Source: Streptomyces sp. adm13(2018)
GTDB lineage: Bacteria > Actinomycetota > Actinomycetes > Streptomycetales > Streptomycetaceae
DNA length: 38,782 nt
NCBI RefSeq assembly: GCF_008042145.1
Contig: NZ_RDBH01000141.1
Span: 454,230-493,011 of the forward strand
Direction of reading: 5' to 3'
Shown here: one piece after another, positions 5,931 to 38,060 of the stretch
Layout: the number at the start of each line of letters is the position of its first letter
Position numbering within the stretch: the first letter of the stretch is position 1
The notes under the pieces: model-generated
What the model saw: only the letters and a program-made list of their open reading frames with translations
Told to the model about the DNA's origin: nothing
Database searches by the model: none
Translations under genes and position numbers: made by a program

Positions 5931-6638
5931 TCAGTCCTTGAGTGCCGCCAGCCGGGCCTCGATCTCGGCGCTGTCGCCCAGCGCGTCCAGCTGCTCGAAC
6001 TGGGCGTCCAGGGAGGACGCCGCCAGCTCCTGCTTGCCCATGGCCCGCGCCTCCTCCCGGCGCACCTTGTCCTCGAACCGGCTCAGCTCGCTGGTCGGGT
6101 CCAGCACGTCGATGTTCTTCACGGCGTCCATCATCGTGTTCTGCGCCTGGGCCGACCTGGCGCGGGCCACCAGCTCGTCGCGCTTGGCCTGCAACTCGCC
6201 CAGCTTGACCTTCATCTGGTCGAGGCCCGTCCTGAGCTTCGCGACCACCTCGGTCTGCGCGGCGATCGTCGGCTCAGCCGTCCGCGCCTCCTTCTCCGAC
6301 TGGAGCTGGCGGCCGAGCGCCACCTTCGCCAGGTTGTCGAAGCGGTCCGCCTCCGCCGTCCGCCCGCCGCCGCGCAGCTCGTCGCCCTTGCGGCTGGCCG
6401 CCAGCGCCTTTCCGCCCCACTCCTGCGCCGCCGCCACGTCCTCCTGGTGGTCCTGCTCCATCAGCCGCAGGTTCCCGATCGTCGCGGCCACCGCCTCCTC
6501 CGCCTCCGCGATGTTGTTCGCGTAGTCGCGGATCAGCTGGTCCAGCATCTTCTGCGGATCCTCGGCCTGGTCCAGCAGCGCGTTGATGTTGGCCTTCGCC
6601 AGCTGGGTGACCCGGCCGAGGATGGTCTGCTTGCTCAT
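5931..6638 (-). CDS. pspA: PspA/IM30 family protein
   Basis: ATG at 6638 with a strong AAGGAGGAG ribosome site just upstream. The 235-aa product starts MSKQTILGRVTQLAKANINALLD, the amphipathic helix and DPQKMLDQLIRDY signature of the PspA/IM30/Vipp1 family, then is almost entirely alpha-helical and coiled coil (charged Q/E/K/R-rich heptads to about residue 170) and ends in the EIEARLAALKD helix. PspA oligomers bind stressed cytoplasmic membrane and preserve the proton-motive force. In actinobacteria it often lies beside a TPM-domain membrane gene, and remnants of such a gene are found directly upstream here (6692-6757 and 7057-7139). Confidence 0.92.
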   Translation of the reverse strand: MSKQTILGRVTQLAKANINALLDQAEDPQKMLDQLIRDYANNIAEAEEAVAATIGNLRLMEQDHQEDVAAAQEWGGKALAASRKGDELRGGGRTAEADRFDNLAKVALGRQLQSEKEARTAEPTIAAQTEVVAKLRTGLDQMKVKLGELQAKRDELVARARSAQAQNTMMDAVKNIDVLDPTSELSRFEDKVRREEARAMGKQELAASSLDAQFEQLDALGDSAEIEARLAALKD

Positions 6639-6691: not shown

Positions 6692-6757
6692 TCAGAAACG
6701 GCCTCCGCCGCCCAGCCGGCCACGCGTGCCGCCGCCGCCGAAGCTGCCGGGCCCGCC
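6692..6757 (-). pseudogene. 3' remnant of a probable TPM-domain protein
   Basis: On the minus strand, 53 bases upstream of pspA, lie 21 codons reading GGPGSFGGGGTRGRLGGGGRF and a stop. A glycine-rich tail ending in a GGGRF-like sequence is typical of TPM-domain membrane proteins, which are common pspA neighbours. The reading frame runs straight into the palindrome at 6758, where its expected body is missing. I infer that this is the tail of the gene whose start is at 7139. The identification rests on a short low-complexity tail and on context. Confidence 0.5.
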
Positions 6758-7355
6758 GCCGAGCACGAACCAGCGCCCCCGTCGCCACATACTCCTCAGC
6801 CGTCCACTCACCCGAGCCCCCCGTGTGCCGTCGTGTCGGTCGTCCCACCGCTCTCTCACCGTAGCGGCGGCTACCGACAGTGACGCAGGCCTGTGGAGAA
6901 TGGTTTCCGCCGACCCTCGGGGACACCCACCGTCCGGTCGCGGACGGGCATATGCGGACATAACCTCCCCCTTGTGACGCGAACAGCCACCCGAACCCTT
7001 CTCGCGGTACTGGTGGCGGCGTGGTGGCTCCTCGTGCCCGCCGTTCACGGTGCCCGCGGGCACCGTGAACGGCGGGCACGAGGAGCCACCACGCCGCCAC
7101 CAGTACCGCGAGAAGGGTTCGGGTGGCTGTTCGCGTCACAAGGGGGAGGTTATGTCCGCATATGCCCGTCCGCGACCGGACGGTGGGTGTCCCCGAGGGT
7201 CGGCGGAAACCATTCTCCACAGGCCTGCGTCACTGTCGGTAGCCGCCGCTACGGTGAGAGAGCGGTGGGACGACCGACACGACGGCACACGGGGGGCTCG
7301 GGTGAGTGGACGGCTGAGGAGTATGTGGCGACGGGGGCGCTGGTTCGTGCTCGGC
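6758..7355. repeat. Perfect 598-bp palindrome (two 299-bp arms, no spacer)
   Basis: Every base from 6758 to 7056 is the reverse complement of 7057 to 7355. I compared the arms base by base and found no mismatch. The centre is the 12-base palindrome at 7051-7062. Identity ends abruptly at 6757/7356. The right arm looks like the authentic sequence: it continues into the GH18-like gene on the right and contains, on the minus strand, a signal-peptide start for the gene whose tail lies left of the palindrome. The left arm then appears to be an inverted copy that replaces the body of that gene. A spacer-free palindrome of this size is rarely stable in bacteria, so a fold-back assembly or library artefact must be considered. 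Confidence 0.97.
7057..7139 (-). pseudogene. 5' fragment of a probable TPM-domain protein (signal peptide only)
   Basis: GTG at 7139 on the minus strand opens a peptide VTRTATRTLLAVLVAAWWLL followed by VPAVHGAR: basic residues, a hydrophobic core and an A-x-A-like cleavage region, a clear secretion signal. The box TAACCT lies 7 nt upstream of the GTG with no ribosome site, suggesting a leaderless transcript. The frame reaches the palindrome centre after 28 residues and continues only into the mirror copy. With the Gly-rich tail at 6692-6757 it plausibly forms the two ends of one pspA-linked gene whose middle is missing. The same start also exists as a mirror image on the plus strand at 6974. 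Confidence 0.5.
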
Positions 7356-8181
7356 CTCGTCCTGGTCCTCGTGGTGCCCCCGCTGTTCGGCGCGCTCGCC
7401 CTGCGCGTCAACTACGCGGGAGACCTCAGGGCCGACGCGAAGACCCGGGACAAGGACGCCGTCTGGCTCGGCCACGCCTGGGTCGACGGCCGGAAGAAGG
7501 ACGCCGACCTCGCCGCGTTCGCCGCCCGCGTCAAGGACACGGGCATACGCGACCTGTACGTCCACGCCGGGCCCCTGGAGCAACCGGGCCACGTCCCGGG
7601 CCGCCGTCGTGACGTCCGCCCGGCAGATCCTGGACGTCGGCTTCGACGGGGTCCACTTCGACCTGGAGCCGCTGCTGTCCGACGACGCGGACTACCTCTC
7701 CCTGCTCGACGACCTCGGGGAGGTCACCCGGCCGCGGAAGGCGCAGCTGTCCATAGCCGCCCACCAGATCGACCCGCTCCCCGGCCTGCACTCGGCCAAC
7801 AGCCTGTTCACCGGCAGGGAGAAGTGGTGGTCGCAGAAGTTCTTCGGCCAGGTCGCCCGCCGCGTCGACCAGATCGCCGTCATGTCGTACGACACGTGGA
7901 TGCCGCTGGAGAGCCTGTACGGCGGGTACGTCGCCCAGCAGACCAGCCTGGCCCTCGAAGTGACGCCCGAGTCGACCGACCTCCTGATGGGGCTCCCCTT
8001 CTTCCACGAGGACGACCTCGGTCACCACGAGAACGCGGAGACCGTCGAGGCCGCCGTCCGGGGCGTCCGGCTCGGCCTCGGACGCACCGACCCGGACCGC
8101 GCGCGCTTCGGCGTCGCGCTCTACGTCGACTTCGCCGCGGAGGAGGGCGACTGGGCGGCCTACCGCGCGGGCTGGCACTGA
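7302..8181 (+). pseudogene. GH18-like membrane-anchored protein, broken by deletion/frameshift near 7580
   Basis: GTG at 7302 follows a GGGGGG ribosome site (7290-7295). The first part has a basic N-terminus, one transmembrane helix (WFVLGLVLVLVVPPLFGALAL) and runs to RDLYVHAGPLE (about 7581). Homology then jumps to the next frame (RAAVVTSARQILDVGFDGVHFDLEP, from about 7591) and continues to a stop at 8181. The DGVHFDLE stretch resembles the GH18 DxxDxDxE active-site motif with the second Asp replaced by His. The rest (AVMSYDTW, DLLMGLPFF) also fits a TIM barrel. Roughly 45-60 codons of barrel between the two parts appear to be missing, an estimate from the family fold. The 5' end lies inside the palindrome's right arm. 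It could be a true pseudogene or a mis-assembled intact gene. Confidence 0.7.
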
Positions 8182-8229
8182 GGCCGGGCGCGGGCCGGGG
8201 GCGACCCCTGCCGCCCGTACGGGATGAGC

Positions 8230-8333
8230 GACCCCACCCACCCCGTACCGAGGGTGACCGCGCCCGTCCCGCGCGGGGAGCGACCGCGCCCGTCCCGCGC
8301 CGGGAGCGACCGCGCCCACCCCGTACCGGAGGC
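8230..8333. repeat. Four tandem copies of a 26-bp unit
   Basis: Units at 8230-8255, 8256-8281, 8282-8307 and 8308-8333 share the form GACCGCGCCCGTCCCGCGC followed by a GGGAGC-like end. The outer two units resemble each other (CACCCCGTACCG) and the inner two are nearly identical. They lie between the GH18-like remnant and the LpqW-like gene. Confidence 0.8.
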
Positions 8334-8554
8334 GCCGCCACCGCTGCCTGACCGGGTCGCCGATCCGTCTGCCGCTCGCGTACGGGATTCCCCTGCCCGG
8401 CGCGCGGCTCCCCGCGCCGTTGGGCCGCACGAGTGGGGTTCTCCAGCCGTGTCGTCGTGTCGCCATGGCCGGATCCTTTCTGTCCTTTTCAGTGGATGAG
8501 CAATAGGTGTGATCATCTCCAAATGGAATGAATCTGGACGAAGGGGTACAAGTC
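8334..8554. other. Intergenic region upstream of the LpqW-like gene
   Basis: No gene is seen here. The last 90 bases (about 8465-8554) are distinctly richer in A+T than their surroundings and probably hold the promoter of the lipoprotein gene at 8555, but I could not place a convincing -35/-10 pair. Confidence 0.4.
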
Positions 8555-21496: not shown

Positions 21497-21576
21497 AGCA
21501 GGTGCCGGCTGATGACCCGGCGGCGGGGCAGGCCCTTGGCGACGGCGGTGCGGACGTAGTCGGCGCGCTTGTTCTC
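21497..21576 (-). repeat. 80-bp inverted copy of permease codons in the SBP-permease gap
   Basis: These 80 bases are the exact reverse complement of 22206-22285 in the downstream permease gene (codons 199-225, the EAA loop). I checked every base; identity ends on both sides at the first flanking base. The copy starts 6 bases after the SBP stop and ends 35 bases before the permease start. In the transcript the two copies could form an 80-bp duplex about 630 nt apart. Confidence 0.96.
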
Positions 21577-21611
21577 ACCCCCCTTCCCGGAGCCAACCCC
21601 CGGAGCCCCCC

Positions 21612-22535
21612 ATGGGTCGATATGTGATCCGGCGGCTGCTGCAGATGATCCCGGTCTTCTTCGGCGCCACGCTGTTGATCTTCCTGATGGTGAACGTGAT
21701 GGGCGACCCCATCGCCGGACTGTGCGGCGACCGCCAGTGCGACCCGGCGACCGCCGCCCAGCTGGAGAAGGAGTTCGGCCTCGACAAGCCCGTCTGGCAG
21801 CAATACCTCACCTACATGGGCAACGTCTTCACCGGAGACTTCGGCACCGCCTTCAACGGCCAGCCCGTCACCGAACTGATGGCCAGCGCCTTCCCCGTCA
21901 CCATCCGGCTCACCATCGTCGCGATCGTCTTCGAGATCGTCATCGGCATCAGCCTCGGCGTCGTCACCGGCCTCAAGCGGGGCCGCCCCGTCGACACCAC
22001 CGTCCTGCTGCTGACCCTGGTCGTCCTCTCGGTCCCGACCTTCGTCACCGGCCTCCTCGTGCAGCTGCTCCTCGGCGTCAAGTGGGGCTGGATCAAACCG
22101 GCCGTCTCACCCGAGGCCACCTTCTCCGAACTGATCGTGCCGGGCCTGGTCCTCGCCTCGGTCTCGCTGGCGTACGTCACCCGGCTCACCCGGACCTCGA
22201 TCGCCGAGAACAAGCGCGCCGACTACGTCCGCACCGCCGTCGCCAAGGGCCTGCCCCGCCGCCGGGTCATCAGCCGGCACCTGCTGCGCAACAGCCTCAT
22301 CCCCGTCGTGACGTTCATCGGCGCCGACGTCGGCGCCCTCATGGGCGGAGCCATCGTCACCGAACGGATCTTCAACATCCACGGCGTCGGCTACCAGCTC
22401 TACCAGGGCATCGTCCGCCAGAACACCCAGACCGTGGTGGGCTTCGTGACCATCCTCGTCCTGGTGTTCCTGCTGGCCAACCTCCTGGTCGACCTCCTGT
22501 ACGCCGTCCTTGACCCGAGGATTCGCTATGCCTGA
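21612..22535 (+). CDS. Peptide ABC importer permease, DppB/OppB type (operon 2)
   Basis: ATG 21612 with CGGAG at 21601-21605. The 307-aa protein is collinear with the permease at 15612: MGRYVIRRLLQMIPVFFGATLLIFLM, the DFGTAFNGQPVTELM loop, and the EAA loop DYVRTAVAKGLPRRRVISRHLLRNSLIPV. Codons 199-225, covering that loop, are present a second time in reverse orientation upstream of the gene. It overlaps the next permease by 8 nt, exactly as in operon 1. Confidence 0.94.
   Translation: MGRYVIRRLLQMIPVFFGATLLIFLMVNVMGDPIAGLCGDRQCDPATAAQLEKEFGLDKPVWQQYLTYMGNVFTGDFGTAFNGQPVTELMASAFPVTIRLTIVAIVFEIVIGISLGVVTGLKRGRPVDTTVLLLTLVVLSVPTFVTGLLVQLLLGVKWGWIKPAVSPEATFSELIVPGLVLASVSLAYVTRLTRTSIAENKRADYVRTAVAKGLPRRRVISRHLLRNSLIPVVTFIGADVGALMGGAIVTERIFNIHGVGYQLYQGIVRQNTQTVVGFVTILVLVFLLANLLVDLLYAVLDPRIRYA
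22206..22285 (+). repeat. Source copy of the 80-bp inverted repeat (EAA-loop codons)
   Basis: This is the coding-strand partner of 21497-21576. It encodes ENKRADYVRTAVAKGL and the following ten residues of the permease, and the reading frame is normal. The EAA loop is the best-conserved part of the family, yet the operon 1 permease differs at several bases here, so the inverted copy derives from this gene. Confidence 0.96.
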
Positions 22536-25807: not shown

Positions 25808-26776
25808 GTGAGTATCGGGACCGTGACTGTGACACGACCGGCACGTCTCGCGGGCGCCGCGCTCTGCGCCGTGCTCGCCCTCATCTGCGCCGGGTGGATT
25901 CTCAAGGACCTCGCCGCGCTCGGCTCGCCCGTCGACCTCGCCTGGCACTGGGCCGGTGACCAGCACCTGCCGGTCCGCGGCCGGCCCGCCACCTCCCTGG
26001 TCGACGCCGTCCTGCTCGTCGCCTCCGCGGCGGCCGCGGTCGCCGGCCTCCGGTCCCGGCACGCGGCCTCCGCGTTCGCCGCCACCGGCACCGTCACGCT
26101 CGCCCTGCGGCTCCCCGGGCTCTGGGAGCCCGACAGCGGGGCCCTCCTCACCGCCCTGGTCGAACTCGCCCTGGCCGCCGCCCTGGTCGTCACCGCCGCC
26201 GTCGGCCGCCGCCCCGGCGCCGCCCCGCACGAGCCGCTCCCCGGCCGTCCGCGGCCCGGCCCCGCCGCCGCCGCCGGGGCCCTCCTCGCGACCGGCGCGG
26301 TCGTCCTGGCCCTGTGGGAGCTGTACTGGGCCGGCGAACTCCCCCTGGAGGCCACCGTCGACCGCTTCACCGGCGGCCGCTCGATCATGAAGTCGGCCCT
26401 GGCGCCCCCGCCGGCCTGGCTGTCGCTGACCCTCGTCGCCCTGTACGGGACCGGCGCCGTCTCCGTCCTCTTACGGGCCCGCCACAGCCGGGCCACCGGG
26501 CTGCTGGCCGGGGCCTTCCTGGCGGCCGGCGGACTCGCCGCCGTGGCAAGGACCACCCGCTACGAGATGATCGGCCACTTCGCGGACCTCCCGGCCTACG
26601 GCCGGCTGACCGTCCTCACCGCCCTCTTCGGACTCCTCGGCGGCCTCGCGGTCCTCGCCCTCCTCGCCGGGCGCGGCGCACCCCCCGGCGCCCCCGGCGA
26701 GGAGGGCGAGGACCGCGAGGCCGCCGAGGAGTCCGAAGAGGGCGGTGAGGACCACCCGCCGCCGCCCGGCTGGTGA
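25808..26776 (+). CDS. Hypothetical multi-pass membrane protein with a TTA codon
   Basis: GTG 25808 is the likeliest start; TTG 25787 would add seven residues, and neither has a clear ribosome site. The 322-aa product has about six hydrophobic segments (for example LAGAALCAVLALICAGWIL, DAVLLVASAAAAVAGL and LTVLTALFGLLGGLAVLALLAG). I do not recognise a family. A TTA leucine codon at 26471-26473 means translation should need the bldA tRNA, as for many developmental Streptomyces genes. The last 40 residues switch from the final helix to a strongly acidic tail (EEGEDREAAEESEEGG), because that tail is the reverse complement of the helix codons. The stop lies 1 nt from the stop of the convergent peptidase. 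Confidence 0.75.
   Translation: MSIGTVTVTRPARLAGAALCAVLALICAGWILKDLAALGSPVDLAWHWAGDQHLPVRGRPATSLVDAVLLVASAAAAVAGLRSRHAASAFAATGTVTLALRLPGLWEPDSGALLTALVELALAAALVVTAAVGRRPGAAPHEPLPGRPRPGPAAAAGALLATGAVVLALWELYWAGELPLEATVDRFTGGRSIMKSALAPPPAWLSLTLVALYGTGAVSVLLRARHSRATGLLAGAFLAAGGLAAVARTTRYEMIGHFADLPAYGRLTVLTALFGLLGGLAVLALLAGRGAPPGAPGEEGEDREAAEESEEGGEDHPPPPGW
26612..26752. repeat. 60-bp perfect inverted repeat with 21-nt loop at a convergent gene end
   Basis: Bases 26612-26671 are the exact reverse complement of 26693-26752; pairing stops at both outer flanks. The left arm encodes the last membrane helix of the upstream gene and the right arm encodes its acidic tail. It lies just before the convergent stops at 26776 and 26778. 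It could act as a giant bidirectional terminator, but it is several times longer than the other stems in this window (10-27 bp). Confidence 0.96.
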
Positions 26777-38014: not shown

Positions 38015-38060
38015 ACGGGGAAGGGCCCGGGGAGCAGCTGCTCCCCGGGCCCTTCCCCGT
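38015..38060. terminator. 46-base perfect palindrome, bidirectional terminator
   Basis: 23-bp arms with no unpaired centre (ACGGGGAAGGGCCCGGGG ... and mirror), 18 bases after dapC and before the convergent secreted-protein gene. Confidence 0.85.

Follow-up and report, generated by a model that had tools for sequence, protein, structure and literature searches.

Inverted chimeric sequence has published counterparts in several kinds of data. One example is Escherichia coli DNA amplified by MDA, in which 406 of 475 chimeras were inverted joins, mostly less than 10 kb apart and formed at short complementarity (Lasken and Stockwell, PMC1855051). The inverted repeats considered here, from the draft genome of Streptomyces sp. 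adm13(2018) (G000; 7.92 Mb in 346 contigs), share with these chimeras the nearby inverted join, the deletion of the intervening sequence and, at 8 of 13 measured turn points but not at the focal one, a few complementary bases, whereas the MDA chimeras come from single reads of the amplified DNA of one E. coli cell and the present case is known from an assembly. Likewise, artificial palindromes and fold-back chimeras are known from long-read data (PMC6218980, PMC12870357), and there, as here, a chimeric sequence turns back on its own complement; those artefacts, however, are described at the level of reads, whereas the arms in G000 are at most 299 nt long and a third of the repeats lie at scaffold gaps. 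Additionally, short-read library preparation yields chimeric reads with inverted repeat sequences (PMC10908179), a likeness to G000 that extends to the inverted repeats in chimeric sequence but not to the consequence, which was variant-calling errors in human tumour DNA in that report and would be assembly errors here. Some papers on gap closing describe the frequent insertion of wrong sequence. Among the matches listed, represented by titles and starts of abstracts, there was no description of inverted local copies at contig ends.

The window, i.e., the whole stretch of 38,782 nt that was analysed (G000:C48:454230-493011), spans exactly the interval between two 100-N scaffold gaps (454130-454229 and 493012-493111), and the contig immediately to its left also ends in an exact inverted repeat (452811-454129). 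A script scan of the window located a perfect palindrome at 6758-7355, with arms of 299 + 299 nt, no mismatches and a spacer of 0, and a separate repeat search of the window recovered the same pair of arms, bearing out the preliminary description of a perfect 598-bp spacer-free palindrome in the interval between pspA and a GH18-like gene. The palindrome is flanked by pspA on the minus strand at one side and by the GH18-like gene on the plus strand at the other, its right arm terminates within the opening codons of the latter (Table 1), and the nearest 100-N gap is 6757 nt away. Since the second-longest palindrome of the window has arms of just 23 nt (38015-38060) and the third arms of 9 nt, a chance origin of the 598-base palindrome was rejected. 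The 23 + 23 nt palindrome, which is also perfect, lies close to the right end of the contig. A mobile element or a terminator was likewise discarded as an explanation, as the arms consist of the starts of the neighbouring genes and their intergenic region.

Table 1. Features at and around the palindrome, in window coordinates.
Feature	Position	Strand	Remarks
Left arm, foreign	6758..7056	none	Reverse complement of 7057-7355; occupies the place of about 1.94 kb of TPM gene body
Right arm, natural	7057..7355	none	TPM gene 5' end, intergenic region and first codons of the GH18-like gene
TPM-domain gene, remaining 5' end	7057..7139	-	Residues 1-29 of the intact L034 protein, 93% identity; GTG start at 7137-7139
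TPM-domain gene, remaining 3' end	6692..6757	-	Glycine-rich tail and stop (22 codons, stop counted); alignable with six of seven relatives
pspA (PspA/IM30 family), intact	5931..6638	-	Pfam PF04012, 125.7 bits
GH18-like gene, broken and frameshifted at about 7582/7583	7323..8181	+	Start codon at 7323 is the analyst's reading

Relatives of the isolate carry a different arrangement at this locus. In the near relative Streptomyces sp. CB02009 (L034), the right-arm sequence is present once, and the GH18-like gene is followed by the intergenic region, a TPM-domain gene (430-2535, 701 aa) and then pspA; the intact TPM protein of the relative matches Pfam PF04536 with 61.3 bits. In the relatives G015, G004 and G162, collinear sequence covers 99-100% of the right arm but 8% of the left arm, and the window has 275-276 nt where these genomes have 1938-1942 nt. 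Given this difference in collinear cover and the missing gene body, the right arm is the natural one and the left arm is a reversed copy. The earlier statement that the left arm replaces a gene body thus holds, with TPM remnants (6692-6757 and 7057-7139, both on the minus strand) flanking that arm. Residues 1-29 of the TPM protein were found twice in the whole assembly at E 1e-5, once per arm, and residues 30-701 had no match there at the same threshold. At the left joint, 5 nt (GCCGA) are shared with five of the six relatives with an intact TPM gene. Almost certainly, an assembly error removed about 1.94 kb of an ordinary TPM gene and put a reversed copy of the adjoining DNA in its place.

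A TPM gene of normal length, i.e., a stop-free stretch of 726-785 codons with the expected glycine-rich tail, is found in six of the seven relatives compared. The seventh, G041, has 661 codons with a different ending, and its tile, unlike those of the other six, offers no sensible match to the 3' remnant (6692-6757). Three exact inverted repeats lie in the region of its TPM gene (L039 2282-4000, corresponding to G041:C225:446781-448499). A palindrome of the focal kind is absent from the tiles of all seven relatives, the inverted repeats of G041 being other ones, and a 24-nt probe is found once, in L034; a natural repeat conserved in the genus was discarded on these grounds.

The focal palindrome has company on its scaffold. 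A minimum arm length of 40 nt within 5 kb selects 33 exact inverted repeats in the examined 664 kb (G000:C48:1-664000), about half of a scaffold of 1,301,391 bases. Nineteen repeats in the same stretch have arms of at least 100 nt within 3 kb, and three other places carry palindromes that lack a spacer (arms of 64, 67 and 68 nt). With the spacer limit set at 30 kb, no repeat in G000 had a spacer longer than 4461 nt. Direct repeats of at least 40 nt within 30 kb (25 in 664 kb of G000 versus 13 in G015, 13 in G004 and 6 in G162, each per 381 kb) showed no enrichment relative to these three genomes. Therefore, the excess consists of inverted, nearby copies. The control relatives G015, G004 and G162, examined over 381 kb each, have no arms of at least 100 nt within 3 kb; arms of at least 60 nt are absent from 381 kb each of G015 and G162, G004 has a single case, of 83 nt, and the shorter repeats found in the three sit mostly in one small cluster per genome. 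Similarly, 386,162 bases from 20 other genomes (12.8-20 kb each), searched within 5 kb, are free of arms that reach 40 nt, and so are the 29 short loci L005-L033. One other draft resembles G000 in this respect: G041, from another species of the genus, where eight arms reach 100 nt or more over 381 kb.

The position of these repeats relative to scaffold gaps is informative. In a set of 36 repeats from G000, which includes three with arms of only 20-23 nt, 12 have their outer arm end at most 5 nt from a 100-N gap. Over 2000 trials of random placement the mean was 0.03 and the maximum 2, so the adjacency is more than 100 times chance. Seen from the gaps, 11 of the 36 in G000 are marked by such a repeat. 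Two further repeats enclose a gap, and 22 of the 36, the focal palindrome included, neither abut nor enclose one. In G041, 7 of 20 repeats lie at gaps (random mean 0.003), and 7 of its 11 gaps are marked. As scaffold gaps are a product of assembly, the association between repeats and gaps has no biological reading.

Comparison of the two arms with relatives, carried out for the repeats of G000, extends the asymmetry of the focal locus to the rest. Collinear relatives reach 22 of the 33 repeats, the other 11 being outside their reach, and 21 of these 22 consist of one natural and one foreign arm. At 17 of them, the chain of BLAST hits to one or more relatives takes in one arm and hardly any of the other. 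At four more (225319, 309137, 475726 and 480841), the BLAST chain crossed both arms, and finer alignment gave 80-100% identity for one arm and 12-20% for the other; two of these four lie in the window (21497-22285 and 26612-26752). The repeat left over, 198484, has an ambiguous arm assignment, and none of the 21 resolved repeats has two natural arms. Four repeats overwrite sequence of nearly equal length instead of deleting it.

We prefer an assembly artefact as the explanation of the palindrome, whether it originated in chimeric molecules or in software, because the inverted repeats are many, a third of them are at gaps, nearly all of those that can be assessed have a foreign arm, and the sampled stretches of 23 other genomes lack them. 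This explanation is held with high confidence, with chimeric molecules taking about two thirds of it and an origin purely in software one third, and the palindrome is very probably a property of the database record and not of the organism. The preliminary description had offered a natural fold-back duplication and an assembly or library artefact side by side; recurrence, gap adjacency and foreign arms strongly favour the second and turn against the first. At the focal locus, reads would first have dropped out over the G+C-rich body of the TPM gene. The contig end beside the drop-out would then have been extended by a fold-back chimera, in which synthesis had jumped to the opposite strand and run back through the same locus for 299 nt. 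In a last step, this wrong end may have been joined, via a few matching bases, to the contig carrying the 3' end of the gene.

Base composition is consistent with read loss in G+C-rich stretches, albeit only modestly. The reference stretches missing at three repeat sites have 75.6-79.6% G+C, compared with 1-kb means of 71.9-72.6% (s.d. 3.1-3.4), and those missing at 100-N gaps have 72.5-78.4%; missing stretches with neither a repeat nor a gap have a mean of 73.1-75.3%, so the contrast is modest. The bases at the turn points bear on how the arms were made. At least 2 nt matching the natural continuation were present at 8 of the 13 measured junctions (13 of 22 being measurable), as opposed to 10.8% of random starts. 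This comparison favours the observed side, for which the best match among up to three references was taken, whereas the control is computed per reference. The other five junctions have 0 or 1 matching bases, and the focal turn point has 0 relative to the references. The arms are more probably the work of chimeric library molecules than of software by itself, and we would guess that a maximum arm of 299 nt suits reads of about 300 nt.

The alternative that fares best is contained in the artefact explanation itself, namely a purely computational error in which a gap filler or scaffolder misoriented reads, or a graph walk turned back, with no chimeric molecules involved. Such an origin is less probable than chimeric molecules. 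The four repeats that overwrite nearly equal lengths are the expected product of filling a gap whose size is known, and this near-equal replacement fits gap filling better than a simple chimera; the spacer-free palindromes at three more places and the focal turn point without matching bases point the same way. Against it, matches at the turn points are above chance overall, which strand switching would predict, although a filler that works with short overlaps could leave such matches too.

A real event at this single site is very improbable. It would have been a fold-back duplication with deletion in the organism, by template switching at a replication fork, and the exact, contiguous sequence of the record and the few matching bases at the left joint are in line with it. 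However, the examined 664 kb contain another 32 exact inverted repeats of 40 nt or more, and 12 of the 36 listed repeats end at scaffold gaps; both observations argue against it, as does the fact that long spacer-free palindromes are unstable in bacteria. That the isolate stably carries and tolerates a 598-bp spacer-free palindrome, and that a template switch deleted its TPM gene, is equally hard to credit. A strain with a real genome-wide tendency to inverted duplications, e.g., through a repair defect, would explain the high number of repeats in one genome, but is the least probable explanation in view of the biologically meaningless adjacency to gaps and of the like pattern in G041, another species, where it includes the same TPM gene region.

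The assembly artefact that we prefer has consequences beyond this locus. Exact local inverted repeats in the G000 draft mark places where genes have been lost or overwritten, and therefore claims of gene loss, pseudogenes or palindromes drawn from this draft are unsafe; those drawn from the G041 draft are probably unsafe as well. Rather than a real feature, the palindrome is a warning for genome scans, and a simple screen is available, which looks within 5 kb for exact arms of 40 nt or longer, one of them non-collinear with relatives. At another repeat site, a gene for a 1180-aa protein has likewise lost residues 101-598. A search for a protein missing at a plain scaffold gap came back empty, but it had no positive control and is hence uninformative. 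A family scan of 10 of 17 candidate reading frames at foreign-arm sites gave matches that include a fumarase/aspartase-family lyase, a PfkB-family kinase, an HtrA-like protease and a UvrD-like helicase with a nuclease domain; the scanned frames overlap in places, so the true gene is ambiguous, and none is claimed to be essential.

Several further differences from relatives occur within the window. At about 7582/7583, the GH18-like gene is 140-156 nt short in comparison with all seven aligned relatives and is frameshifted, a feature that the preliminary description did not mention and that is probably another assembly loss; its 3' part scores 20.1 bits against Pfam PF00704, under the cut-off of 29.6. 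The interval from this gene to the following collinear stretch is about 0.2 kb long in the window (8190-8382) and 3.9-4.8 kb long in relatives, a contrast that can be read either as a real difference or as an assembly loss. An exact 80-nt inverted repeat (21497-21576 and 22206-22285) lies at a transporter-permease-like gene, named from its repeat pattern. Here it is the first arm that is foreign (12%, versus 92-95% in G015 and G004), and it overwrites a stretch of nearly equal length. Farther along, an exact 60-nt inverted repeat with a 21-nt spacer is located at 26612-26671 and 26693-26752, and in this case the second arm is the foreign one (15%, versus 80-87% in G004 and G015).
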